64,000 bases of DNA from Candidatus Poribacteria bacterium (GTDB lineage: Bacteria > Poribacteria > WGA-4E > WGA-3G): NCBI GenBank assembly GCA_022821965.1, contig JAJECN010000056.1:1-64000 (forward strand), written 5' to 3'. Positions 26,875-40,490 of the stretch are shown here, one piece after another. A model generated the notes under the pieces. It did not search any database and was not told where the DNA came from. It was given only the letters and a program-made list of their open reading frames with translations. The position numbers were made by a program, and so were the translations under genes. Each line of letters opens with the position of its first letter. Within the stretch, counting starts at the first letter, position 1.

Positions 26875-28293
26875 TTATGACCTACGATAAAAGATCCGTA
26901 TCGGTGTGCCGTGAAATCCAAATTCTTCCCGAATATTGTTGATAAGATATGATTCATACGGCTGCTGCACGCGATGGACGTTTCGTCCAAAGATTAGAAA
27001 AGTCGGCGGTTTTGTTTCCACTTGCGTGATGTATTTGAGTGCGGGTCGCGCTCCCTTAACGCGCGGGGGTGGGTGCGCGTTCCGTAACTCCAGAAGCAGG
27101 TCGTTGAGTGCTGGTGTCGGGATATGGGTGCAATACTCACGGTAAACTTCAAGGGCAGTTGCTAATATTTGGGTAACGCGTTGTCCAGTCAGGGCAGAAG
27201 CAAAAACGCGTGGGACATAGCCGAGTCGTGGGAGTTGTGCATCTATTGTATCCATAAACTCTGGGTGTGTCGTATTATCCTTATTGACGATGAGGTCCCA
27301 TTTATTCATGACTAAAATAGAGGCTTTCCCCTGCCGTTCAATGAAATTGGCGATCGTCTTATCCTGCTGTGCGACATCTTGGGTTACATCCAGCACGAGT
27401 ACGGCGACATCGCTTTGGCGAATACTGTGTATCGCACGTTTCACAGTGACAGATTCAAGTTCATCGTTGATAACCGATTTACGTCGCATGCCAGCTGTGT
27501 CAACGACCTCAAAAGGGATGTTATCGTGAACGATGCGTATATTCACCGCATCACGCGTCGTGCCGGGTCGGTCATCAACAATCATCCGTTCTTCACCCAA
27601 GAGGTTATTGATAAGCGAGGATTTTCCGACATTCGGTCTACCGACAATCGCAATTTTTATTGCTGCAGGTGCGTGGTGGACTGTTTCATCAGTTTCCGGG
27701 AGGATTTCTACGACCCGGTCAAGCAGTTCTCGAATCCCATCGTTTTGGACACAGGAGGTCCACATCGGTTCTTCCAGACCAAGCCTATAAAACTCGGCGG
27801 CTTCATTGCGAAATTGCTCGCTGTCTACTTTGTTGACGACGAGGCAAATCGGTTTGTCAGCGGCTCTGAGTTTGTCAGCGACGATTAGGTCGTGTGGCAT
27901 GATACCGGTTCGCGCGTCAACAACAAAAAGCACAAGGCTCGCTTCAGCCAAAGCAGCATCTACCTGTAATTGAACGTTATCAATAAGTCGATCATCCGGA
28001 TCAACGTCCAAACCACCTGTATCGACAATGGTAAACGGACGATCCCTCCATTCCACATCCGCATAGTTCCTATCGCGCGTTACGCCGGGAGTATCATGGA
28101 CAACGGCGAATCTACGCGAGGAACGGGAGCCTTTGGAAACCTTCGGCTTTTGGAAACCTTCAGCAAAGAGATTTTCTTCCTGACCGCTGACGGTTGATGG
28201 CTGATGGCTATTTCCAGTGATTCGATTGAAGAGCGATGATTTCCCGACATTGGGTCTGCCGACAATCGCAACAATGGGGTGTCCAGTTTCCAT
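26875..28293 (-). CDS. der: Ribosome assembly GTPase Der with in-frame repeat insertion
   Basis: A GTPase needed for maturation of the 50S subunit. The 472-residue protein has two G domains, each complete: GRPNVGKSS (12-20), DTPGVTRDR, VDTGG and NKVD; then GRPNVGKSS, DRPGTTRD, DTAGM and NKWD; and the C-terminal KH-like domain (from about 385) ending in GTPIRIFYRR. Unusual: between G1 and switch I of the first domain there are about 32 extra residues (28-60, rich in Ser, Gln and Lys) where relatives have about seven. The DNA for this stretch (28114-28212) matches the palindromic repeats of nearby spacers. The G2 threonine in GVTRDR is kept, so the domain may still work. Start ATG 28293 has AAGGA upstream. 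Confidence 0.95.
   Translation of the reverse strand: METGHPIVAIVGRPNVGKSSLFNRITGNSHQPSTVSGQEENLFAEGFQKPKVSKGSRSSRRFAVVHDTPGVTRDRNYADVEWRDRPFTIVDTGGLDVDPDDRLIDNVQLQVDAALAEASLVLFVVDARTGIMPHDLIVADKLRAADKPICLVVNKVDSEQFRNEAAEFYRLGLEEPMWTSCVQNDGIRELLDRVVEILPETDETVHHAPAAIKIAIVGRPNVGKSSLINNLLGEERMIVDDRPGTTRDAVNIRIVHDNIPFEVVDTAGMRRKSVINDELESVTVKRAIHSIRQSDVAVLVLDVTQDVAQQDKTIANFIERQGKASILVMNKWDLIVNKDNTTHPEFMDTIDAQLPRLGYVPRVFASALTGQRVTQILATALEVYREYCTHIPTPALNDLLLELRNAHPPPRVKGARPALKYITQVETKPPTFLIFGRNVHRVQQPYESYLINNIREEFGFHGTPIRIFYRRS
28114..28212 (-). repeat. Palindromic repeat copy translated in frame inside der
   Basis: Read on the minus strand of this segment as AGCCATCAGCCATCAACCG, TCAGCGGTCAG, then GAAGAAAATCTCTTTGCTGA. 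The spacer copy at 28333-28400 reads AGCCATCAGCCTTCAGCC, TTCAGTTGTCAG, then AACCTCTTTACTGA, and the copy at 32405 reads TTGTCAGAAGGAAATCTCTTCCTGA. Next to it a 13-mer GAAGGTTTCCAAA occurs twice. The insert is a multiple of three bases and has no stop. Confidence 0.75.
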
Positions 28294-28317: not shown

Positions 28318-28422
28318 GGCTATCAGCTAAGAAGCCATCAGCCTTCAGCCTTCAGTTGTCAGCAAGCGGGCTATCCTTTATGAGGAAACCTCTTTACTGA
28401 TTGCTGATAGCCGATAGCCCTT
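28318..28422. repeat. Intergenic palindromic repeat
   Basis: GGCTATCAGC (28318-28327) and its reverse complement GCTGATAGCC (28403-28412) enclose about 75 bases with several TCAGC/CTTCAG units. It fills most of the spacer between the AI-2E-family gene and der. Confidence 0.8.
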
Positions 28423-28442: not shown

Positions 28443-30647
28443 TTAGAAATGTTTTCCAATTGTCTCTCTGTCGTCGGAAACGGCGATAACCGATTTTATC
28501 ACAACAATGATAGGAATTGCAAGCAAAACACCCCAAAAACCGAGTACAGCTGCCCCGACAATCACAGCAAACATAATCAGCAATGGATCCACATCAACAG
28601 CAGAACTCATGATTTTGGGAGAGATAAGCGAGTTGTCAAGCGTCTGAATACCGAGGATGGCACCTAACACAACAGCACTACGAACAAGGAAGTCAATTAA
28701 GCCGAAATCTCCAGCTGCGAGTCCCATCAGCATCGCTATAAAGGCGAAGCCGCCCCCGATAAAGGGACCAAAGGTCGGTATCGCATTACAGATACCAGCG
28801 AGCAAACCGATAACCAACGCGAACGGCACACCAATAATGCTGTACGCGATGCAGGAAACCACGGACACAATCGCAATCACGGCGACTTGTCCTTTTAAGA
28901 ACTGTTGAAGATTTTTATCAATTTCGCGTAGGTAGGTCTTGACAGTCTCACGATAGCGTTCAGGCACCAACAAGATAAAACTGCGGAAATAGTTATCAAA
29001 CGACTGACTTGCATAGACGAACACGATGAAAGCGAACAATACTGTGGCGAGAAATCCACCGAACCCAAAAGCGACCGAACCCGCGAATTGAAAAGTTTCC
29101 CTGATAGCCTCGCTACCGGTTTGTGCTATTGTTGGTATTCTTTCTGTAAAATATGCCTTCGCCTGCTGGACAATCGGTTCGTCTTTGTAAGCGTGACTAA
29201 TGCCCTCTTTATACGTCGCAAGGGGTTTCCAACCGCCCGTAGGGGTGGCACGATGTCGGATGCCAGTCTCATTACCGGCGTATACACCGGAAGGTGCCGA
29301 TGCTAACAGTGAAATTGTCGCTGTCCCTTCTGCTCCTTCCATCTTTCGCCACTCGTTTCCGAGACGATGCCATTCATAGAGACCATTGGGGGTCCCGGCG
29401 TATAGTTCAATATCTGACACTTGTGAAGTGCCATCTACACCTGCGAGCGCGTAAACCTCTTCTGTTATCGGGGAAAGTGGTTCCCATTCGAGAGAAGAGT
29501 CTTCCAGATACCAATACACCGTCGTAATCGTAGGCGGAGGAATCGTCTGTTCTGGCGATTCAGTTTCGATCGCCGTTGTGCTGGCAACATACGTTATTCT
29601 ATCACCATTTCTATCCACAACAGAGATAATACTGACAATGGATCTTTCAGCATAAATTTCAGGGGCAATTTCACGCCACGTTTGTCCTGAATCTTTACTA
29701 TTGTAAAGCCCCTTTTGCGTTCCGACGTAGATTTGGGCGTTCTCCCAAATTGGAACGCTGGTGGCTTGGACAGAAGCAGTATCAAAGGGAGTGCCTTCTA
29801 TCTTGTGCCAGATTTTCGGTTTAATCTGCTGCGTATCCGCATCGCTGTCGATTGCCTCAACGGGGAGTGCTTTATAATACCTATATAACCCATTTTGGGT
29901 ACCGGCGTAGATAACATTTCCATTTGCTGTAAGTGTCTGTATCGGTTTACCGAGGAGTGCTCCGTTCGTGATACCGATACGGGGAAGTTTATCCGCCACG
30001 TCCTGTTGGATTTCATAGACCCCGTGGTTGGTACCGAGATAGAACGTTTCTGTCGCTTGCCCGTTTCTTTTCGTAGTCTCGTCCTGATGTATGGGTGAGG
30101 TAACCTCGCCCATACTGATAGCAACTGCTTCAAAGGTTTCACCGACGGCATACGGCAGCATAGTTTCATAATAAAATTTCAGCAACCCACTCGCCATCTG
30201 ACCTGTCTGTTTGCTGACCTGTTTTCCTGTGTAGAAAAGCAGTCCGCCACAGACGAGTACAATCAGGACAGTTGCGATTCCGCGTTGATAGCGCGCTTTG
30301 AACGGGAAAGAATTCCAGAGGAACCTGAAGATATAAGCAAATCCAAACCCTAAAATGAAAGGCGTTAGCACACCTAACAACCGTGTAAAAATCCACACAA
30401 CTATCATCAGTATTTCCAGAATGACGATGCTTTTTATATCAATCCAGCGGTAAACGCGGATGAGCAGCACAATCAGCAGTATCGACACTATCGGATGTAA
30501 CAGCAGGATCCGGCTACTCTCTGCGGAAGATCCTTTGTAGTAGGCGAACGCTATCCACCCGGCAGCGAGCACGACGCTGATGATCGCGAGAATTGACGCG
30601 CCGCTGAGTGCTGGTTGCTGTGGGTTTGGTTGGTTTTGGGTGTCCAT
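28443..30647 (-). CDS. AI-2E-family transporter with inserted propeller-like domain
   Basis: A 734-residue membrane protein. The AI-2E/PerM transporter family is normally about 350 residues; here its membrane part is split. Residues 15-145 carry about four membrane segments, residues about 175-485 form a large extracytoplasmic insert, and residues 515-730 carry the rest of the transporter, including the family motif with GQVAVIAIV...GLLAGICNAIPTFGPFIGG. The insert holds four to five units ending in GT-x-x-GLY (205-211, 249-255, 309-315, 418-424, plus GNETGIR near 458), with KDSGQTW at 319-325, the BNR/Asp-box type seen in sialidase-like beta-propellers. The family exports small molecules or exchanges ions; the insert could be a sensor or a surface-binding domain. 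No good ribosome binding site before ATG 30647. Confidence 0.88.
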   Translation of the reverse strand: MDTQNQPNPQQPALSGASILAIISVVLAAGWIAFAYYKGSSAESSRILLLHPIVSILLIVLLIRVYRWIDIKSIVILEILMIVVWIFTRLLGVLTPFILGFGFAYIFRFLWNSFPFKARYQRGIATVLIVLVCGGLLFYTGKQVSKQTGQMASGLLKFYYETMLPYAVGETFEAVAISMGEVTSPIHQDETTKRNGQATETFYLGTNHGVYEIQQDVADKLPRIGITNGALLGKPIQTLTANGNVIYAGTQNGLYRYYKALPVEAIDSDADTQQIKPKIWHKIEGTPFDTASVQATSVPIWENAQIYVGTQKGLYNSKDSGQTWREIAPEIYAERSIVSIISVVDRNGDRITYVASTTAIETESPEQTIPPPTITTVYWYLEDSSLEWEPLSPITEEVYALAGVDGTSQVSDIELYAGTPNGLYEWHRLGNEWRKMEGAEGTATISLLASAPSGVYAGNETGIRHRATPTGGWKPLATYKEGISHAYKDEPIVQQAKAYFTERIPTIAQTGSEAIRETFQFAGSVAFGFGGFLATVLFAFIVFVYASQSFDNYFRSFILLVPERYRETVKTYLREIDKNLQQFLKGQVAVIAIVSVVSCIAYSIIGVPFALVIGLLAGICNAIPTFGPFIGGGFAFIAMLMGLAAGDFGLIDFLVRSAVVLGAILGIQTLDNSLISPKIMSSAVDVDPLLIMFAVIVGAAVLGFWGVLLAIPIIVVIKSVIAVSDDRETIGKHF

Positions 30648-30659
30648 TTTTTAAGGGTT

Positions 30660-30800
30660 GTCAGCCGTTAGTTGTCAGTTATCGGTTAGGAGGTGTTTTT
30701 GTAACAACCATCCCGAATTTGCAGGGCTTCAGGAAGTCGTGAATTGTTACAGCGTCCCTCTTTAACTGAAAACCGATAACTGACTACCGACAACTATGTT
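30660..30800. repeat. Intergenic palindromic repeat with long arms
   Basis: The left arm (about 30661-30690: GTCAGCCGTTAG, TTGTCAGTTATCGGTTA) and the right arm (about 30763-30797: TAACTGAAAACCGATAACTGA, CCGACAAC) are inverted copies of each other. The right arm carries CTCTTTAACTGA as in the other family members. It lies between the symporter and transporter genes and reaches to the symporter stop codon. Confidence 0.8.
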
Positions 30801-32392
30801 GTTGCTGCGGCTTCGGTTGTATCTCCATCTCTGGATTCATACGTCTCAATTACACCTGCGCCGATGCTGTCGCCCCAGACGTTAACTGTGGTACGGAATC
30901 GGTCGAGTAGCCAATCAATGGAAAGAATCAGCGTTATCCCCTCAACTGGGAGATCGACGGCTCTGAGGACGATAACCATTGTGACAAGCCCTGCTTCTGG
31001 AATCCCTGCTGCCCCGATAGCTGCCAAGGTTGCAGTCAACACGACGACCACCTGTTGCGCTGGATCCATGGAAATTGCATAGACTTGGGCGATAAACATG
31101 ACAGCGACTGCCTCATAGAGTGCGGTGCCATCCATATTAATGGTTGCACCCAAGGGAAGCACAAAACTGGAGGTCCGTCTGGAGACACCGTTCTGGTTTT
31201 CTACTCCTTCCATTGTTAACGGAAGGGTTGCGCTTGAACTCGCTGTTGAGAAGGCGTTGAGTAACGCGGTTGCCATGCCTTTGAAGTAATTGAGCGGATT
31301 TCTACGTCCGAGGAGCAGTAGGAGTATCGGCAAAGCGATAACGGCGTGTACGCCGAGACCTAACACGACTGTCGCACTATATTTACCGACGGCGACGAGT
31401 TCGGGCCAGAAGCCTGCAAAGCCTTTTGCCTCGCCGATCCTACCTGCAATTAAGCCGAAGATACCGAGAGGCGCGACGTACATTATCCAGTGGACGAGTT
31501 TCATCACCGCCTCATTTAGTCCTGAAATCACGGAGACGACAGGTTTGCCAATATCACCGAGCATGGACAGAGCAGCACCGATAAGAAGCGAGAAAAAGAT
31601 TAAGGGCAGAATGTCGGTATGCACCATCGCTTTGAAGACGTTTGAAGGAATCATCCCTTCTTTCCCTGTTTCTTCATTGCCGAGGAAGACCTCTTTAATG
31701 GTACTGCCCATCGTCTTTTCCATTTTGCCAGACACTCTTGCTGCAATGGGCAGGTTGATGTTAACGCCTGTGCCTGTATTTTGAGGTTCTATCGTCTCAA
31801 GACGACCGTCAATGAATAATAGGCGTTCACCACTGTCTGTTGTTACGTAACGAGCATCTTCGGACAGCGGTTGCCATGATTTCACTGTGGCTGTTGTTCC
31901 GTCAATTGATTTCACTTCACCACTCACGTTCTGGTCAGCGAGCGTTATAACATATTTATTGTTATATGTCCGATTAAATTCTCCGCTCAACTCAACAGTG
32001 AGCATATCAGCACCGGAGAGTGTATAACTCAAATCGGCACGTTCTTCGCCTTGTGATAGTCCTTTTCCCGGCGAGATGATGTTGACGAGAATCATCCCGA
32101 TGATAACGGAGATAGCGGTTGTTGCCATGTAGTACAGGACGGTTCGTCCGCCGATGGAGCCGATGTTGCGGATGTCGCCTAAATTGGTTATCCCGACGAC
32201 CATAGACAAGACAACGAGCGGCACCACTATCATCTTTAGCAGATTTAAGAATACTTCACCGAGTATTGTTGTGTGGACCGCATATTCCGGCGCGAATCCA
32301 CCGATGATTGCCCCAGCAACAATGGCGATGATAATCCCATAGAGTAGACCGAGGCTTACTTTCGGTTTCTTTTCGTTTTCATTTTCATTCAT
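30794..32392 (-). CDS. Dicarboxylate/amino acid:cation symporter (DAACS) with extra loop domain
   Basis: A 532-residue inner-membrane symporter of the GltP/DctA family, importing glutamate, aspartate or C4-dicarboxylates with sodium or protons. Seen: MIVVPLVVLSMV in TM2, the serine-rich hairpin ASSSATLPLT, NMDGTALYE in TM7 and the second hairpin region with AAGIPEAGLVTMVIVL. Family members are about 420 residues; the surplus is a single stretch between TM3 and TM4 (about 118-215) of beta-strand-like, hydrophilic sequence containing a SGEVKSIDGTTATVKSW segment. It would face outside. AAAGGAG precedes ATG 32392. Confidence 0.92.
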   Translation of the reverse strand: MNENENEKKPKVSLGLLYGIIIAIVAGAIIGGFAPEYAVHTTILGEVFLNLLKMIVVPLVVLSMVVGITNLGDIRNIGSIGGRTVLYYMATTAISVIIGMILVNIISPGKGLSQGEERADLSYTLSGADMLTVELSGEFNRTYNNKYVITLADQNVSGEVKSIDGTTATVKSWQPLSEDARYVTTDSGERLLFIDGRLETIEPQNTGTGVNINLPIAARVSGKMEKTMGSTIKEVFLGNEETGKEGMIPSNVFKAMVHTDILPLIFFSLLIGAALSMLGDIGKPVVSVISGLNEAVMKLVHWIMYVAPLGIFGLIAGRIGEAKGFAGFWPELVAVGKYSATVVLGLGVHAVIALPILLLLLGRRNPLNYFKGMATALLNAFSTASSSATLPLTMEGVENQNGVSRRTSSFVLPLGATINMDGTALYEAVAVMFIAQVYAISMDPAQQVVVVLTATLAAIGAAGIPEAGLVTMVIVLRAVDLPVEGITLILSIDWLLDRFRTTVNVWGDSIGAGVIETYESRDGDTTEAAATT

Positions 32393-32404
32393 AGTTTGAC
32401 TCCT

Positions 32405-32450
32405 TTTTGGTTATCGGTTGTCAGAAGGAAATCTCTTCCTGATCGGATAG
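32405..32450. repeat. Short palindromic repeat copy
   Basis: The spacer reads GGTTATCGGTTGTCAG, then AAGGAAATCTCTTCCTGATCGG: a small hairpin plus one arm of the TCAGT/GATAAC family. It lies 13-60 bases upstream of the symporter start, i.e. in its leader. Confidence 0.6.
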
Positions 32451-32492
32451 ATAGCACTTAGTGGTAGCAGCGAGTGCATCTATTGGAACTGG

Positions 32493-33158
32493 TTATTCGG
32501 ATCTTTGTAAACGTTCAAGTGCTGCGCGCAGTTTTGCGAGTTCTTCTTCGGCGTGTTGGGCACGGGCTTCCGCTTCGGCTGCATGCTCCCGACCAGGACC
32601 GAACCACGCATCCTTGATAGGATCATAGAGCCGCAGCACGCCATCACGCTCACCGAGTTCTAAACCTAACGTTTCGGATGGAAGTCGTCCCTCTACAAAT
32701 TCTATCTCTTCATAAGAACCATCCACAAGGCGAAACCCTATGAAAGATGGATGAATCTCACCATAAGGGTCGTAAATGTAGTACTCTTTGACCCGTAAGA
32801 TTTTCTCATAAATCATCTTTTTTTCGTTGAAGTCTTTCGTATACGTGCTTGGACTGGCAAGTTCGAGGACGAAATCGAGATACGGTTGCTGTTCCCACGT
32901 TTTGTAGGTTCGCAGGTCTTTCTTTGAAACACCACGTACCATGAACACGTCCGGTGAGATAACTTTCCGCGGATTGCCCTCTTCATAATATAGGAACATG
33001 TTGCCGCAGACATGCACATCCGGTGCGTCTCGGAAATGCCAATCTATCATTTCTATCATATCCAAAAGGAGTCTGACATGTCTCCCCGTTTCTGCCATCG
33101 GTTCACCGTCTGATTCGGGATAGACGAGTGTGGGGGCAGTGGCTATTTTTCTTTCCAT
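32493..33158 (-). CDS. Uma2-family PD-(D/E)XK protein
   Basis: A 221-residue protein of the Uma2 (DUF820) family, a nuclease-fold group abundant in cyanobacteria and other environmental bacteria, usually as many scattered paralogues of unknown role. The fold residues are visible: Asp in VISPDVFMV, Glu in LDFVLELASPST and Lys in NEKKMIYEK, followed by VKEYYIYDP. The C-terminus from about 185 is a Glu/Ala-rich coiled coil (AEAEARAQHAEEELAKLRAAL), common in the family. AAAGGAG precedes ATG 33158. Nuclease activity is unproven. Confidence 0.88.
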   Translation of the reverse strand: MERKIATAPTLVYPESDGEPMAETGRHVRLLLDMIEMIDWHFRDAPDVHVCGNMFLYYEEGNPRKVISPDVFMVRGVSKKDLRTYKTWEQQPYLDFVLELASPSTYTKDFNEKKMIYEKILRVKEYYIYDPYGEIHPSFIGFRLVDGSYEEIEFVEGRLPSETLGLELGERDGVLRLYDPIKDAWFGPGREHAAEAEARAQHAEEELAKLRAALERLQRSE

Positions 33159-33174
33159 CGTGCTATCTCCTTTA

Positions 33175-33345
33175 TTGGTTATCGGTTATCGGTTATCAGT
33201 TGTCGGTTTTCAGTCGTCAATGTTAGAAAGTGTGCTAAAGTTAGGAAAGTTGCGAAGTTGATAACTTTACCGAATTTAAAACACTTTACAGACTTTATGA
33301 ACTTCTTTAACTGAAAACTATTTCCTCTGATAACCGATACCTCAT
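33175..33345. repeat. Intergenic palindromic repeat between aspS and the Uma2 gene
   Basis: GGTTATCGG occurs twice in a row, then GTTATCAGTTGTCGGTTTTCAGT at about 33178-33218; the inverted arm TTTAACTGAAAAC and CTGATAACCGATACC lies at about 33306-33343. The middle contains several AAGTT/AACTTT repeats. Longest copy in the window, about 170 bases. Confidence 0.8.
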
Positions 33346-33358
33346 AACTTTTTCTACC

Positions 33359-35386
33359 TTAGCCGTCTGCATCGACGCGGATGGAGAGTTCTTCTAACTG
33401 TGCATCCGTTACAACGGACGGGGCATGGGTGAGCGGGCAGAGACCTTGTTGTGATTTGGGAAACGCTATAACTTCTCGGATGTTTTCCTCATTTCGCATC
33501 AACATCACCATTCGGTCAAGTCCGGGTGCGATGCCGGCATGCGGGGGTGTGCCATACGCCAACGCCTCTATAAAATAGCCAAACCGACTTTCGACCTCTT
33601 CCGGCGTGATGTCCAGAATGTTGAAGATCTTCTGTTGGATATCCCATTGGTGAATCCTGACGCTTCCGCTACAGATTTCATACCCGTTGCACACGAGATC
33701 GTAGTGTTGGCTCTGGACCTTCCCCGGATCTGTTTCTAACAGCGGTAAAGTCTCTTCCGTCGCGCCTGTGAACAGATGGTGGTAAGGTTCGTAGCGGTTC
33801 TCTTCTTCATTCCATTCAAACAGTGGGTAATCGACAATCCACAAGAAGTTGTATTGGGATTCATCAATAAGGTTGAGTTTTTTGCCAAGATGAAGGCGGA
33901 GATTACCGAGTGCATCCGCGACGATCTTCGGTTTGTCAGCAACAAAGAACATGATGTCCCCCGGCTGCGCGCCGGTTCTCTCTTGCGCGGTTTCAAGTTG
34001 CTCTGTTGTGAAGAACTTGACAATCCCGGATGAGAAACCTTCTGACGTGACTTTGACCCACGCCAAGCCTTTTGCGCGGTAGGTGGCGACAAATTCGGTC
34101 AAGTCATCGATGTCTTTGCGTGAAAAGTCTGCCCCACCGGGTGCAGCGATGGCTTTGACTTCTCCGCCGCTTTCCAAGGTGCGCGTGAACACTTGAAAAT
34201 CACAGTCCGCCATAACATCTGAGAGGTCGGTGAGTTCCATGCCGAACCGCGTGTCCGGTTTGTCGTTTCCGAAGCGTGCCATTGATTCATGATAGGGTAG
34301 ACGTAGGAAGGGTGTTTGGACAGGAATGCCACCCGCGTCCTCAAATATTCGTTTCATCAACCCCTCGGTCACCTCAAGTACATCGTCCATCCCTGCGAAG
34401 GACATTTCAATATCAAGCTGTGTGAACTCCAACTGCCTATCGGCACGAGTATCCTCATCGCGGAAGCATCGGGCGATCTGGAAATATCGGTCAACGCCGC
34501 TCATCATGAGAATCTGTTTAAACTGCTGGGGTGATTGCGGGAGTGCATAGAACCGACCGGGATAATGACGACTCGGCACAAGGACATCGCGTGCCCCTTC
34601 AGGTGTGCTGTTCATCAAAATGGGTGTCTCAATTTCAAGAAAACCCTGCTCGTTCATGTAGTTACGTGCTGCGAGCGCTGCCTGATGCCGCATTGCCAAA
34701 GTTTTTTGCATATCGGGACGACGCAAATCGATGAACCGATAGCGCATCCGAATGTCTTCCGCCACGTCAATATCGTCTTCAACGGGGAACGGCGGTGTTT
34801 TGGCAGTATTTAGAATCTGCAGAGAATCCACAGCGACCTCGATCTCACCCGTATCAAGTTCTGGATTGACCGTGCCTTGGTAGATGCTGATACCGTTTTC
34901 CTCGTTCTTAATGTGATAGGTCCGATTATTTTCGACATCGGTGAGCAGCCATCGCGCGTCAGCGACTCGGGTTGCGACCTCAATTTCTTCGGAAAGGGTG
35001 TATTTAGTGTCAACATCCGAAAACAGTGCCCGGAATGCGGGGGAAAGGGTGCCATCGGCGAGTTCTGCCTGATACACTGCATCTGCGTGGAAGAGCAATT
35101 CGCCTGGATCACGTTCACGGACGGTGCCGCTGATATTCAGTACAAATTCACCTCTAACAGCATCGGCGAGGGCGTGTGCTTCTTCGTCAATTTGTGGATC
35201 AAAGACGACTTGTGTGATGCCTGTCCTATCGCGTAAATCGACGAAGATGACCCCACCGTGATCGCGGCGACGTTTGACCCAACCGTTGAGTTGCGCGGTC
35301 GTTCCCGCATCGGTTAAGCGTAGGTCCCCACAATAATGGGTTCGTTTTAAACAAGGCGATGTGGCTTCTTGGGTTTCTTGAGACAT
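33359..35386 (-). CDS. aspS: Aspartyl-tRNA synthetase with insertion in the anticodon-binding domain
   Basis: Charges tRNA-Asp. The 675-residue protein is of the bacterial type with OB-fold anticodon domain (GWVKRRRDHGGVIFVDLRD, about 35-53), class II catalytic core (GFLEIETPIL motif 1; LPQSPQQFKQ; FRDEDTRADRQLEFTQLD motif 2; GIAPGLDRMVML motif 3) and the GAD insertion domain. Bacterial AspRS is usually about 590 residues; the surplus is one block of about 78 residues (93-170) inside the OB domain, just before GTVNPELDTGEIEV. The block has ARWLLTDVENNRTYHIK and looks beta-rich. It is not derived from the nearby palindromic repeats as far as I can see. Start ATG 35386 with AAGGGA upstream. Confidence 0.95.
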   Translation of the reverse strand: MSQETQEATSPCLKRTHYCGDLRLTDAGTTAQLNGWVKRRRDHGGVIFVDLRDRTGITQVVFDPQIDEEAHALADAVRGEFVLNISGTVRERDPGELLFHADAVYQAELADGTLSPAFRALFSDVDTKYTLSEEIEVATRVADARWLLTDVENNRTYHIKNEENGISIYQGTVNPELDTGEIEVAVDSLQILNTAKTPPFPVEDDIDVAEDIRMRYRFIDLRRPDMQKTLAMRHQAALAARNYMNEQGFLEIETPILMNSTPEGARDVLVPSRHYPGRFYALPQSPQQFKQILMMSGVDRYFQIARCFRDEDTRADRQLEFTQLDIEMSFAGMDDVLEVTEGLMKRIFEDAGGIPVQTPFLRLPYHESMARFGNDKPDTRFGMELTDLSDVMADCDFQVFTRTLESGGEVKAIAAPGGADFSRKDIDDLTEFVATYRAKGLAWVKVTSEGFSSGIVKFFTTEQLETAQERTGAQPGDIMFFVADKPKIVADALGNLRLHLGKKLNLIDESQYNFLWIVDYPLFEWNEEENRYEPYHHLFTGATEETLPLLETDPGKVQSQHYDLVCNGYEICSGSVRIHQWDIQQKIFNILDITPEEVESRFGYFIEALAYGTPPHAGIAPGLDRMVMLMRNEENIREVIAFPKSQQGLCPLTHAPSVVTDAQLEELSIRVDADG

Positions 35387-35593
35387 TGTTAGATATTCCC
35401 TTGCCTATTTACCAGATGCAAGGGTTCCTCCTATTCAGAAATTCCCACCATTTACGGTAGGTATTTTACATCATTAAACACCGAATCGTTTCCGAAATTC
35501 ACATCAAAAACTGTGTCTGCCCAATGGGTAAAATCGTTTAGGTAGTTAGTCTTGATAACATCAGAAACGATGGGTGGATGTCAGTGAAAAATA

Positions 35594-38500
35594 TTATCTT
35601 TTAAGTTGTTCAAGTTCACTTTGAATCTGTTCTTTGGCACTCAGTAGATCGCTCGGGTCTGCGGTGCCACGGATGACCTTATCAATCGCTTTCAAAGCGT
35701 TGTTGTAGGACTCTATCTGTTTCTCTGGTTGATTCATAGCGGCGTAAACGTTTCCGAGAACGTAATAGGACCGCCACGAATTGACATCCGCTGCGATGCC
35801 CTTCTTTCCATATTTTTCGGCTTCGGTTATGTTTTCCAATTGCAGATGGAGGCCCGCCATTGCCGCAAAAATGGGTGCTGGCAATTGCAAATCCGTCTCT
35901 TGTCGTTCAAGCCGTTCGTAAGTGCGAAGCGCGTCTTTGTAGCGTTCTTGGCGTTCATACAATGGACCTAAGAGCAGATAGACCTCAAATCTCTTCGGAT
36001 CGCGTCTGAGTAATTCCTCCAACTCCGTTGCTGCCTTTCCAAGTTCACCCTGCATTTCATACAACGTTGCGAGATGGAGGTGTCCCTGAATATCATCAGG
36101 GTTTTGTGCCATCGTCTGTTGTACCTGCCGTTCAATCTGTTGGAGTTCTTCCTGCTCACCTTCGCGAATTAAACCTGCGACGACCCCAAAGTTATAGCGA
36201 ATTGTCTCGTCAACAGGATTGAGTTCCACCGCTTCGTTCATGAGTGCCGCGGCGTTTTGATACTGCGCGCTCGCATAAGCAATTTGCCCACGAATCAATC
36301 TCTGTGTGGCTCTAAAGTAGGTGTCAAGCTTCTCTCGTGCCCCCCGTTTCTCTGCGAGTGTCGCGCCGTAGTTTGTGAGGTAAGGCAGCACCCGTTCCCG
36401 ATATTCTGCCATCCCTTTAATGTTTTGTGTTGTCGTGCCTACCAAATCCGCCCCACGGAAAAATTCCAATCGAGGGCGATTGTCTGTGTGGATAGGTCCG
36501 ATGCCTGCGTATTTACGTACGTTCTCAGGTCCCATCATGAATGAATCGAGCAGCGACATTCCATCCAGATCATCGGCAGCAAGCCCTTCACGAATACTCG
36601 CTATCTGTGAGCGTTCGATGAAGTTTTTGTAGTCAATCCGCAGCGGTTCAAGGGTGCCGATAAGAATCACAAAATCGGGTGTGTACTTATACCAGAGTGT
36701 TGTGTGCGGGAACACCTCAATGAAGGTGCGCACAATCATCTTATAGTGTGCCTCTGGCAAGCGATGCAACGGCACCCATTGACACATAATCCCATCTTCG
36801 CTCAAAATCCGACGACACAAACGGTAGAAATCGGCGGTGTAAATATTGGAGCTCCCCGCACTGACGAGCGGATGGATGATACCCGTCGAGATCATATCGT
36901 ATTTGGTTTTTGTCATCAGGATATGGTTTCGCCCATCGTTGAGCCTATAGTTAAATTGAGGGTTTTCAAACACATTCCCGTTGACGTGTGTGAAATACTT
37001 CTGTGCAGCGGAAATTACGCCGCTGGACAATTCCACTGCGTCAACTTGCACCCCGTGCTGTGTTATGGAATACGAAGTAAGCCCCATACCGAACCCGACG
37101 ACGAGTGCACGTTTCGGACGTGGATGTAATAGCAACGGTAGATGTGCGATGACGCGATGCGACGGTGAATCCCAACGTGAGGCATCCGCTGCCTGATTTG
37201 TGTCTACATAGAGACGATAGACCCCTTCATCATCTTTCAACGTTGTTACGGTCGCGTCCACCTCTTCGTTGTAATCAACGAGCGTATCGCCAGGGCGTTG
37301 CGTTTTGAAAATGGCACTTTTTAGAAAGAGCGGTTGATTCACGGTGAGCAACATGATAACAGCCATTCCAGCGTTGAGGATCGGCATCCCGATACTTACG
37401 CCTTGTAAGAGCGATTTTCCAGTTTCAGCCCGCCATTCGCCTTTCAAAACAAGCAAGCACCCGATGCCTGTGTTCAAGGCGACTGTCAGCACGATACTCG
37501 GTCGGATACCCAGAAGTGGGATCAGGATGAATCCGGCACAGAACGCCCCCAGAATGCTCCCGACTGTGTTGACAGCATAGACGTTCCCAATGCTCCTGCC
37601 TAATTGACGCGCGCTGCCAGTATAGATTTTCGTCACAAGCGGAAAACTTGTGCCCATCAAAAACGTTGGAAGGCACATCACAAGGAAACAGGAAAAGAAT
37701 GCCCAGAATCTACTTCCGCCGAAGGTGGACTGGAACGCGCGACTCATACCGTACAACTCCTCAAACGCTGGCATTAGGATCAGCGCGAAAAGTCCGATAC
37801 CGAGTTGAACGATACCGAAAATTGCTACAGGTTGTTTAATCCGATCAACCCAGCGTGCAAACACCATACTCCCCAGTGCGATGCCGAACAGAAACGCAGC
37901 AAGCATCGTCGCGAACGCATACGTTGTGCTTCCGAGAAAGAAGACCATGATGCGTGTCCACAAGACTTCATACGCCAAAGCACAGAACCCGGAGATGCCT
38001 ATTGCCCATAATACCAATTTAGAGTTGTCGGTTATCGATTGTCGATTGTCAGTTAAAGAGGGCTCTGGTTCAACTGGTATCTCTCTTAACTGATGATTGA
38101 CATCTTCTGTTTCCGAAACCTTCTGTGATAATGCTAATGCAACCGCCGCCACACCGAAATTGATAGCGATACCGACACCGAGTGTCCATCGAACACCTAA
38201 CGCCTCAATTAGGAGGAAGCCTGCTGCAACTGTGCCGATGACTGCGCCGAATGTGTTCAACGCGTACAGGATTCCGATGTTGGTGCCGAGCTGCTCCAAC
38301 CTTTTCACAAAAAATCGAGTTAGCACCGGTAAAGTCCCACCCATCAGTGTGGAAGGGATTAGTAGGACCCCGAACGTTAGCACGAACCGGATGAGCGAGA
38401 GGGTGTAGAACTCTGATGTGATATTGCGATGAATCAAGACATAGATGGCACTCAATGCCCCTAAAATGAGGGGCCAGACAAGGCAGAACGCACCGATACC

Positions 38501-38737
38501 GACTTCCAAGAGCGCGTAAATCCGCAACGGTGATTGCGTGCTTTCGTCAATCTTCCGACCGAAGTAGTAGCTGCCGAGCGCAAGCCCTGCCATAAACGCT
38601 GTCAGGACGGTGCTCGTCGCGAAGACGGTGCTTCCGAAGATGAGCGTGAGCTGCCGCATCCAGATGACTTCATAGATGAGTCCGCTGGCACCGGAGAGAA
38701 TGAAGATGAGCCAAACGATGGGTTTGATATATCGCAT
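35594..38737 (-). CDS. MFS-like / spermidine-synthase-like / TPR fusion protein
   Basis: A 1047-residue inner-membrane protein. Two similar blocks of six to seven membrane segments (about 1-205 and 240-460), each opening with SGFCALAYEVLWTR or its twin SGASGLIYEVIWMRQ, are followed by a spermidine-synthase-like Rossmann domain (about 500-760: VVGFGMGLTSYSI, VDAVELSSGVI, YRLNDGRNHI) and a C-terminal array of about five tetratricopeptide repeats (about 810-1040). The family is common in planctomycetes and related lineages; actual aminopropyl transfer is doubtful since the key acidic residues of SpeE are not clear here. The linker between the two membrane blocks (211-239, LTDNRQSITDNS) looks like a translated palindromic repeat. 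Confidence 0.9.
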   Translation of the reverse strand: MRYIKPIVWLIFILSGASGLIYEVIWMRQLTLIFGSTVFATSTVLTAFMAGLALGSYYFGRKIDESTQSPLRIYALLEVGIGAFCLVWPLILGALSAIYVLIHRNITSEFYTLSLIRFVLTFGVLLIPSTLMGGTLPVLTRFFVKRLEQLGTNIGILYALNTFGAVIGTVAAGFLLIEALGVRWTLGVGIAINFGVAAVALALSQKVSETEDVNHQLREIPVEPEPSLTDNRQSITDNSKLVLWAIGISGFCALAYEVLWTRIMVFFLGSTTYAFATMLAAFLFGIALGSMVFARWVDRIKQPVAIFGIVQLGIGLFALILMPAFEELYGMSRAFQSTFGGSRFWAFFSCFLVMCLPTFLMGTSFPLVTKIYTGSARQLGRSIGNVYAVNTVGSILGAFCAGFILIPLLGIRPSIVLTVALNTGIGCLLVLKGEWRAETGKSLLQGVSIGMPILNAGMAVIMLLTVNQPLFLKSAIFKTQRPGDTLVDYNEEVDATVTTLKDDEGVYRLYVDTNQAADASRWDSPSHRVIAHLPLLLHPRPKRALVVGFGMGLTSYSITQHGVQVDAVELSSGVISAAQKYFTHVNGNVFENPQFNYRLNDGRNHILMTKTKYDMISTGIIHPLVSAGSSNIYTADFYRLCRRILSEDGIMCQWVPLHRLPEAHYKMIVRTFIEVFPHTTLWYKYTPDFVILIGTLEPLRIDYKNFIERSQIASIREGLAADDLDGMSLLDSFMMGPENVRKYAGIGPIHTDNRPRLEFFRGADLVGTTTQNIKGMAEYRERVLPYLTNYGATLAEKRGAREKLDTYFRATQRLIRGQIAYASAQYQNAAALMNEAVELNPVDETIRYNFGVVAGLIREGEQEELQQIERQVQQTMAQNPDDIQGHLHLATLYEMQGELGKAATELEELLRRDPKRFEVYLLLGPLYERQERYKDALRTYERLERQETDLQLPAPIFAAMAGLHLQLENITEAEKYGKKGIAADVNSWRSYYVLGNVYAAMNQPEKQIESYNNALKAIDKVIRGTADPSDLLSAKEQIQSELEQLKR
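38018..38107 (-). repeat. Palindromic repeat copy translated in frame inside the MFS/SpeE-like gene
   Basis: On the plus strand: GTTATCGATTGTCGATTGTCAG, TTAAAGAGGG, then TCTCTCTTAACTGATGATTGACA; the TCAGTTAAAGAG and CTCTTAACTGA arms face each other. The same words make up the intergenic copies at 30660 and 33175. No stop arises in the reading frame. Confidence 0.75.
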
Positions 38738-38894
38738 TTCTTGTCTATACTATAAACATTTCGTCGTTACATGACTAATCAAGTTCTTACATATATGATA
38801 CGTTAGTTGACCGCAGAATTTCAAGTAGAATCCTCTATCTTCTCAGGGCATCCGGTTTTTTATAGCCTTCAATAAACATATTAGTCGGTAAACT

Positions 38895-40490
38895 CTATGT
38901 CTGTTGTGAGGGAGCTTCTTGGACAACAGGAATGACGTAACTCCGAATTATCAAACCTTCTATTGTCTCTGTTTCTGCACGGGGTTCTGGCTCGGCGCGA
39001 TGATCGAAGACGACGTAGTATCCTTCACACACGCCCTCCAGTTTGAGATATGCGGCGAGTTGTTTTTTGCCAGCCTGATAGGACCGGGGTCCCTCACATA
39101 TCTTGGTCTCAACGATGTATTTTTTAGCGTTGTGGAGGATGACGAGGTCCATCCTGCCACGTCCGGTTTGAACTTCAAGATACATTGTCCCGCGGATTAA
39201 ACTAACGAACTGGTCAAGATAGGCATAGAGAAGATCTTGCCCGACGTATTCTTTCGGTGTCTCTGGGACTTGGAGTATCCGAAATCCCACGCGAGCAATA
39301 AAATCTCGGAAGTTGTCAAGAAGCATCTCTATATTAATCTGCCCCGTGGGCGTGAGATAGTCGGGAAAATCGGTATCTTCAGGGAAGTAATCTTTTTCTA
39401 ACCCGTTCACTATAGGTCTGAATGTTTGTAGGATGCAGTAGTGATAAATCGGGTTGATGATCTCACAACGATCGTCAACCCCTCTCTTGATTACGCCGTA
39501 AGTGGCGAGTTCGCTGATGATTTCTTGGCGTAAGTTAAAACGGACTCCTCTCTCGTAAGAAACGATTTCCATCAGAATGTTTTTAAAACGCGGGTCCCTG
39601 TGAATATTCGTCACCAGATGTGTAAGGTTGGTGTTATTTTCTTCAAGAATTTCTGCGTGTGCTTTTGAAAAGTGCGTCATTGTAATCGTCTCGGTTTTCG
39701 GAACGTTCATCTCCTCGGTAAGGATTTGCGCGAACCGATTGACGAGGAACGGCTGTCCGGCAGTCTGTCTGTGAATATTCTCAACAACCTCGGGTGCGAA
39801 GGCTTGACCGACTTCATGCGTATACTGTCCAAGAAGTTCGCTGACCTGCTCAACCGTGAAGTTAGGCAAGGTGAACTCGTCCTGGATATTGAAGGGCGAA
39901 ATAGAGCGGTCTAAATTGAGCTGCGCGATGTTCTTAACGCCTACAATGCCAACACTGTAGGGACATTGGCTCATAGAACTGTGAACATAGATATTACGGA
40001 GTGAACGAAGGAAACCTCTCACAGCATCACGCGGGATACCATCAAACTCGTCAATGACGAGGACAAGTTTCTCATCTCCGAGAAAAGCCCCGAACTCTTG
40101 CAAGAATTCAAGCATCGCTACGTGGTCTGATAGCTTTGTGTCCTCCAAGAATCGACTTAAGGCTTCGGAAGGCGTGATGCCGCGCTTTTGGAATACGCGC
40201 TTAATCTCTTCGTAAATTCTTTTGTAGAGCGATGCATAGAAATCAGGAGCGGTATAGTCTTCATATACCTCAAAGTTGAGTTCAATCGGGAAGTAGGTTT
40301 CTGAGGTATCAGATGCCAGGGAGTCAAGTGCCCATTGGAAGAACGTTGTTTTGCCTGTCTGCCGAGGTGCAAAGATAACTATATATCGTCCCAGTTTGAC
40401 GCGTTTGATGAAATCAGCGAGTTCCGCTTCGCGTGAGACGACGTAATGTTCTTTGGGATTAACGGGTCCATAAGTGCCAAATGTTTTCAT
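38895..40490 (-). CDS. AAA-like ATPase fused to PD-(D/E)XK nuclease-like domain
   Basis: A 531-residue protein. The N-terminal STAND/AAA-like ATPase has Walker A APRQTGKTT (41-49), Walker B VLVIDEFD (141-148) and a winged-helix-like region after about 240. The C-terminal part (about 400-510) has the nuclease-fold pattern Asp in GRGRMDLVI, Glu-x-Lys in KYIVETKI and a following helix QAGKKQLAAYL. This architecture (ATPase plus PD-(D/E)XK, related to DUF1703 proteins) is widespread with many paralogues in anaerobes and Poribacteria-like genomes, and its function is unknown; mobile or defence-related roles have been suggested for relatives. AAAGGA precedes ATG 40490. Confidence 0.85.
   Translation of the reverse strand: MKTFGTYGPVNPKEHYVVSREAELADFIKRVKLGRYIVIFAPRQTGKTTFFQWALDSLASDTSETYFPIELNFEVYEDYTAPDFYASLYKRIYEEIKRVFQKRGITPSEALSRFLEDTKLSDHVAMLEFLQEFGAFLGDEKLVLVIDEFDGIPRDAVRGFLRSLRNIYVHSSMSQCPYSVGIVGVKNIAQLNLDRSISPFNIQDEFTLPNFTVEQVSELLGQYTHEVGQAFAPEVVENIHRQTAGQPFLVNRFAQILTEEMNVPKTETITMTHFSKAHAEILEENNTNLTHLVTNIHRDPRFKNILMEIVSYERGVRFNLRQEIISELATYGVIKRGVDDRCEIINPIYHYCILQTFRPIVNGLEKDYFPEDTDFPDYLTPTGQINIEMLLDNFRDFIARVGFRILQVPETPKEYVGQDLLYAYLDQFVSLIRGTMYLEVQTGRGRMDLVILHNAKKYIVETKICEGPRSYQAGKKQLAAYLKLEGVCEGYYVVFDHRAEPEPRAETETIEGLIIRSYVIPVVQEAPSQQT

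Follow-up and report, generated by a model that had tools for sequence, protein, structure and literature searches.

In a poribacterial fusion protein, the loop that joins the membrane domain's two halves is very probably (at roughly 0.86, in our estimate) an in-frame copy of a palindromic element, non-autonomous and MITE-like and about 70-170 bp long, which has multiplied in one sponge-associated genus of the Poribacteria. The element codes in frame for segments of many unrelated proteins, its occurrence at the fusion linker is polyphyletic, and individual sites have gained it recurrently or had one copy replaced by another. We infer that it is moved by a transposase acting in trans, and that its cores are also exchanged via recombination between the 7-bp-repeat (heptad) arms. 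The sequence comes from Candidatus Poribacteria bacterium (GCA_022821965.1, genome label G000), and the window is the whole stretch analysed, namely positions 1-64,000 of the forward strand of contig JAJECN010000056.1. Its relevant features are:

35594-38737, minus strand: host CDS of 1047 aa; its MFS-like membrane domain is split into two halves and accompanied by TPR repeats and a spermine/spermidine synthase domain
38023-38104, plus strand: palindromic heptad-arm element within the fusion-protein CDS; the minus strand encodes about VNHQLREIPVEPEPSLTDNRQSITDNS
38023-38054, plus strand: left heptad arm, AGTTGTC-GGTTATC-GATTGTC-GATTGTC-AGTT
38051-38060, plus strand: left half of the inner stem, AGTTAAAGAG
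38083-38102, plus strand: inner stem and right arm, CTCTTAACTGATGATTGACA
28129-28212, minus strand: second coding copy, degenerate, in the Der GTPase loop NSHQPSTVSGQEENLFAEGFQKPKVSKG (CDS 26875-28293); orthologues have clear heptads or the T-type peptide here
28340-28419, no strand assigned: intergenic family copy with C-type heptads (GGCTATC)
30656-30795, no strand assigned: intergenic family copy forming a 145-nt hairpin (z = -4.6)
33177-33349, no strand assigned: intergenic family copy, with different cores at the same site in G001/G008 and in G017
32409-32422, plus strand: two-heptad fragment, with longer copies at this place in G001 and G017

The element copy in the fusion protein and its relatives in the window

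The repeat words quoted for this gene in the initial annotation are present as AGTTGTCGGTTATCGATTGTCGATTGTCAGTTAAAGAG at 38023-38060 and CTCTTAACTGATGATTGACA at 38083-38102, and its translation of the linker, SLTDNRQSITDNSK, is the correct minus-strand reading of the CDS. The copy is full length, with arms of 7-bp repeats (RGTTNTC) around the inner stem AGTTAAAGAG...CTCTTAACTGA, such that the left heptads are followed by AAAGAG, a 22-nt core, CTCTTAACTGA and the right arm TGATTGACA. Its 17-nt arms are 82% complementary and, as had been claimed, can still pair; folding of 90 nt against shuffled sequences gives z = -4.6 for the plus strand and only z = -2.2 for the minus strand, which is that of the mRNA. 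Dispersed copies in sister genomes align with it near full length (72-75% identity, E 1e-6 to 1e-8), and the repeat it was said to share with spacers near 30660 and 33175 corresponds to the intergenic copies at 30656-30795 and 33177-33349. Pfam searches identify MFS_1, Spermine_synth (5.5e-22) and TPR in the fusion protein. In an AlphaFold2 model built on 27 relatives, the element-coded residues 210-235 have pLDDT < 50 and fall between transmembrane helices 182-211 and 232-268, in keeping with the proposal that the linker is a tolerant site between domains.

Two coding copies had been reported within 10 kb, the second of which is most likely the Der loop. In the window genome this copy matches no heptad even when 3 mismatches are allowed, with heptads clear in orthologues, and gives a weak profile match (28162-28203, E = 0.04). 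Throughout the genus, the Der (EngA) loop that separates the G1 motif from DTPGVTRDR is unusually long (about 25-50 aa); it is element-derived in half of the species read and made of a different stretch in the rest.

Synteny of the window was compared with G001, G008, G017, G009 and G015. Filled and empty versions of the same site occur among sister species at about 43416, 48121 and 32408, a presence/absence polymorphism as in MITEs, and the cores of sister species differ at 33175 (three cores) and 28340. At about 43416, the copy in G001:C56, G008:C81 and G009:C1 replaces the last codons or stop-codon region of a gene, which gains a new C-terminal tail of element peptide in these sister species. 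The site orthologous to 30656-30795 is occupied by another dispersed repeat (GGAAGGATGGAAGG type) in G001 and G008 and by a short CCCGCCAGC-type stretch in G017/G009; a GGAAGG-type stretch also lies within the G009 fusion linker. Unrelated repeats appear to refill intergenic sites.

The dispersed family and its recurring peptide

Genome-wide counts bear out the view that the resemblance between copies is hardly coincidental: with up to 2 mismatches, (RGTTNTC)3 has 383 plus-strand and 395 minus-strand matches in the 5.69-Mb genome vs none for the reversed pattern, and TTATCGGTTATCAGTTAAAGAG (up to 3 mismatches) has 50, including the window copy, vs none for the control. The 30 places read share a common plan, which consists of a heptad arm, AGTTAAAGAG, a variable core falling into several subfamilies, CTCTT(T)AACTGA and a second heptad arm, with the element ending near AATAGTT...AACTATT or AACCATT. 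The arms are either T-type (GGTTATC) or C-type (GGCTGTC and AGCAGTC), and opposite arms are mostly spaced 5-170 bp apart. In several copies (L003, L011, L026, L027) the right arm itself harbours a small secondary hairpin with the sequence AACTGAAAGGTTTTTCGCAGAAAAACCGAACTGA or a similar one. Like MITEs, the family is thus short, is present in hundreds of copies, and has terminal inverted repeats and no transposase of its own. Heptads are abundant in a single genus, where all 38 genomes have between 42 and 543 (one mismatch); they are sparser in the neighbouring genera g3 and g4 of the family, number at most 1 in g2 and are absent or nearly so elsewhere. The 1.256 Mb sampled of the 5.69-Mb genome contain 70 strict heptad clusters, and only 6 of these overlap predicted CDS vs 83% of the sequence being coding (P = 5e-43); since coding copies drift, this figure undercounts them. 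The window copy fell below a coding-score cutoff of 10 bits, and a looser list with a coding mask was used instead. Rfam gave no match above the gathering score in window positions 30000-40000, and our literature search found no description of the heptad element in Poribacteria, which is not proof of absence.

The genetic code offers an account of how such an element can be tolerated within genes. Three heptads equal seven codons and, as 7 and 3 have no common factor, an array read on its purine-rich strand yields a single cyclic heptapeptide whichever of the three frames is used: GACAACC reads DNRQPTT, GACAGCC reads DSRQPTA and AGCAGTC reads SSQQSAV. Only heptads supplying TAA or TAG (GATAAC, GATAGC) interrupt the array, in one of the three phases, and the inner stem can be read through in a single frame (CAG TTA A.. 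and TCT TTA ACT GA.). Insertion into a surface loop in this orientation would therefore easily remain open, and the recurring peptide follows from arrays that read alike in every frame joined to a stem that opens in one.

A peptide of about QLKDxxVESDxSLTDNRKLxTDNY is encoded in frame in the Der GTPase, CarA, PbpC, RecD2, a NadB-like flavoprotein and others. Searching the window genome's remaining proteins for repeat-coded linkers, as had been suggested, uncovered the element peptide in about ten large reading frames. In the propeller protein at G000:C10:153310-157800 (two-component-regulator-propeller; Pfam Reg_prop), heptad-derived segments occupy adjacent loops; they are present in nearly all members of the genus and in none of its order-level relatives. 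A peptide from this protein has 104 matches in 29 of 36 genomes, 66 of them in stop-free frames 300 aa or longer and 29 with stops, and the Pfam names of the hosts include CarA, PbpC, Der, BatA/VWA, peptidase C25, POTRA and PD40-Omp85 proteins. A profile search of the window genome adds the RecD2 helicase, the NadB-like flavoprotein, PbpC and two FG-GAP/ASPIC proteins; CarA, the propeller protein and the fusion linker match this profile by construction, because some of its rows came from the window genome. Insertion in these conserved protein genes is in frame and uses the one open frame of the element, as in the RPE class discussed below. A residue-class regular expression for the peptide was dropped as a statistic, since the control matched nearly as often as the real pattern. 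A propeller protein of G013 (L285, G013:C75) has the element peptide GQLRDVPIEPEAPTDNRQLKTDNYS in each of two adjoining loops, as if the copy in one loop had been duplicated into the other.

Gain, exchange and replacement in coding loops

Among 36 same-genus orthologues of the fusion protein, the linker is heptad-derived in 17 and an unrelated acidic stretch (e.g. TEADEPPEETQQAESEDVSYLPERQLVLW) takes its place in 19. The end of the acidic linker resembles that of outgroup genus g3 (..QERHFVLW), and it is therefore the likelier ancestral state. The expectation that linkers would differ between genomes with and without the repeat held only for the locus: its alleles do differ, but no genome of the genus lacks the repeat, so the contrast is one between alleles. 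Similarly, the element is present as proposed, yet it replaces resident codons rather than simply extending the linker. Conservation of the linker at the protein level with synonymous change, which would speak against a repeat origin, is found in G015 alone among the relatives (a similar peptide, with roughly 6 synonymous vs 5 non-synonymous codon changes, counted by eye), and the closest relatives G001, G008 and G017 lack a conserved G000-type peptide. On a tree of the flanking protein, computed with the linker left out, the linker state undergoes 10 changes, at least 8 of them forced by the starred branches; the element linker is polyphyletic, its confinement to one clade being rejected at p = 1.7e-5. 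In Candidatus Poribacteria AGPOR5 (L175), the fusion-protein match spans 4142 nt vs about 3200 nt.

Element loops are also present in Der, in 15 of the 29 genomes read; 14 of the 15 are placed in the tree, where they require 4 changes. The element peptide interrupts or replaces the short native linker WQHQENNNVDPKYRVV of CarA in 17 of 30 orthologues read, making it 16-32 aa longer, whereas the other 13 retain the clean short linker; this amounts to 3 changes on the tree. In PbpC, the copy at the same site is C-type in G000 and T-type in G001.

Recurrent gain competes with the alternative that there was one ancient insertion, and that both linker types then spread between species by short-tract homologous recombination, a reading compatible with the identity of the element. 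All 17 element linkers of the fusion protein share nearly the same junctions, and acidic linkers are likewise alike across the genus. Cores differ even within the clade of the window genome, with G000 resembling the distant G015, G001 resembling G017, and G008 resembling G034, G022 and G011. The G000 and G015 linkers are 85% identical over 87 nt (E 5e-22), closer to each other than either is to any dispersed copy, and at least part of the pattern therefore reflects allele sharing or exchange rather than fresh insertion. However, the 75 nt flanking the linker at each end mostly track the relatives of the gene itself and not the linker donor, which means that exchange tracts would need to be very short; a search for import tracts in sister pairs likewise found flanks that follow the relatives, with a slight excess of changes at the junction only. 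The cores of sister species differ also at intergenic sites and in PbpC, and the right-hand junctions of the CarA copies differ between G000 and G001. We regard spread from a single insertion as a serious possibility, if on balance an improbable one; exchange and insertion probably both contribute at the fusion linker.

Other alternatives question the nature of the element itself. Heptad arrays are tandem repeats of variable number, and a low-complexity linker could have grown by 7-bp slippage, with its likeness to intergenic repeats being convergence; this is highly unlikely, given that the inner stem and core AGTTAAAGAG...CTCTTAACTGA, which are not tandem, recur in dispersed copies near full length and that the same core peptide is present in unrelated proteins. 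The recognizable peptide in many proteins, and the similar residues kept by the G000 and G015 linkers with about half of the codon changes synonymous, might instead point to a selected functional module, as claimed for PARCELs, that is shuffled among proteins and leaves intergenic copies as by-products. This too appears very improbable, as intergenic copies far outnumber coding ones, many orthologues manage without the peptide, and the hosts are as diverse as a ribosome-assembly GTPase and outer-membrane proteins. Finally, most of the genomes are metagenome-assembled, in tens to hundreds of contigs, but the family also occurs in the single-contig or near-complete assemblies G005, G009, G017 and G021, and independent assemblies carry the element in the same host genes, leaving an assembly or binning artefact with a negligible chance.

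In light of the above, we favor a mobile MITE-like element, whose arrays would insert into surface loops in the purine-rich orientation, with the reading frame remaining open. Copies landing in genes would mostly be purged, those in disordered inter-domain loops would survive as protein segments, and such loops repeatedly gain or lose copies or swap them for another core. Between heptad arms, no transposase was found in 1.26 Mb of the 5.69-Mb genome, where wide-spaced arm pairs enclose ordinary genes. No clean target-site duplication was read in the empty/filled pairs, which differ by about 10% and have replaced sequence; element insertions are accompanied by loss of resident sequence. The distribution of Y1 (RAYT-like) transposases does not track the element: the window genome has 4 Y1_Tnp genes, and outgroups without the element have them equally. 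More tentatively, and less likely than not, the heptad arms might serve as recombination handles through which cores are exchanged by conversion or template switching, such that tolerant loops in essential proteins keep being rewritten from a genome-wide pool of cassettes. The chimeric G000 linker would fit such a process, its outer left end TTTAGAGTTGTCGG being common to the G001 and G008 linkers and its core resembling that of the distant G015, as would the three cores at intergenic site 33175.

Comparison with known repeat systems

Several known repeats share individual features with the poribacterial element. The STRR heptanucleotide repeats of heterocystous cyanobacteria are likewise tandem 7-bp units scattered between genes; they are simple direct arrays with no paired arms around a core, and by this description are set apart. 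REP/BIME sequences with RAYT are palindromes of 20-40 bp with a GTAG or CGTC tag and a Y1 transposase, whereas the poribacterial element has heptad arms and spans 70-170 bp. BrickBuilt of Porphyromonas gingivalis is also a MITE carrying a minisatellite (tandem array), but has a 23-bp unit and 19 copies that are always intergenic (PMC4596501). The enterobacterial ERIC/RU-1, RU-2 and RU-3 are MITE-like and mostly intergenic, with an open frame that is sometimes fused to genes (PMC2759123); unlike the poribacterial element, their terminal inverted repeats are short (4-7 bp) and lack heptad arrays (PMC2229807). PARCELs are also coding sequences with dyad symmetry shuffled between proteins (PMC2996958), but they are 25-residue tandem protein repeats of amphipathic structure and are not mainly intergenic.

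The closest parallel is with the Rickettsia palindromic elements (RPE) and their Wolbachia counterpart, which are about 100-150 bp long with terminal inverted repeats and are found in intergenic spacers as well as in frame within genes for conserved proteins, the host protein Gmk having been shown to be made and active (PMC2229807, PMC10969869). The poribacterial element is likewise palindromic, intergenic and coding in frame; we liken the two by mode and not by sequence, and claim no membership of the RPE class. It differs in its phylum, in arms that are 7-bp arrays giving the same peptide in all frames, in being mostly intergenic, and in being replaced again and again between species at one loop. 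It behaves as RPEs do, and it matches the pattern of a MITE except for the target duplication and the autonomous partner. TDNRQ- or SSQQSAV-like segments in poribacterial proteins are accordingly element-derived and should not be taken as domains. Rickettsia and Wolbachia provide the best-known in-frame mobile palindromes; the Poribacteria add an uncultured phylum with large genomes, in which Der, CarA, RecD2 and PbpC are among the core genes affected. Gains, losses and replacements can be counted at one loop across dozens of sister species, which makes the origin of new protein segments from a selfish repeat directly measurable.
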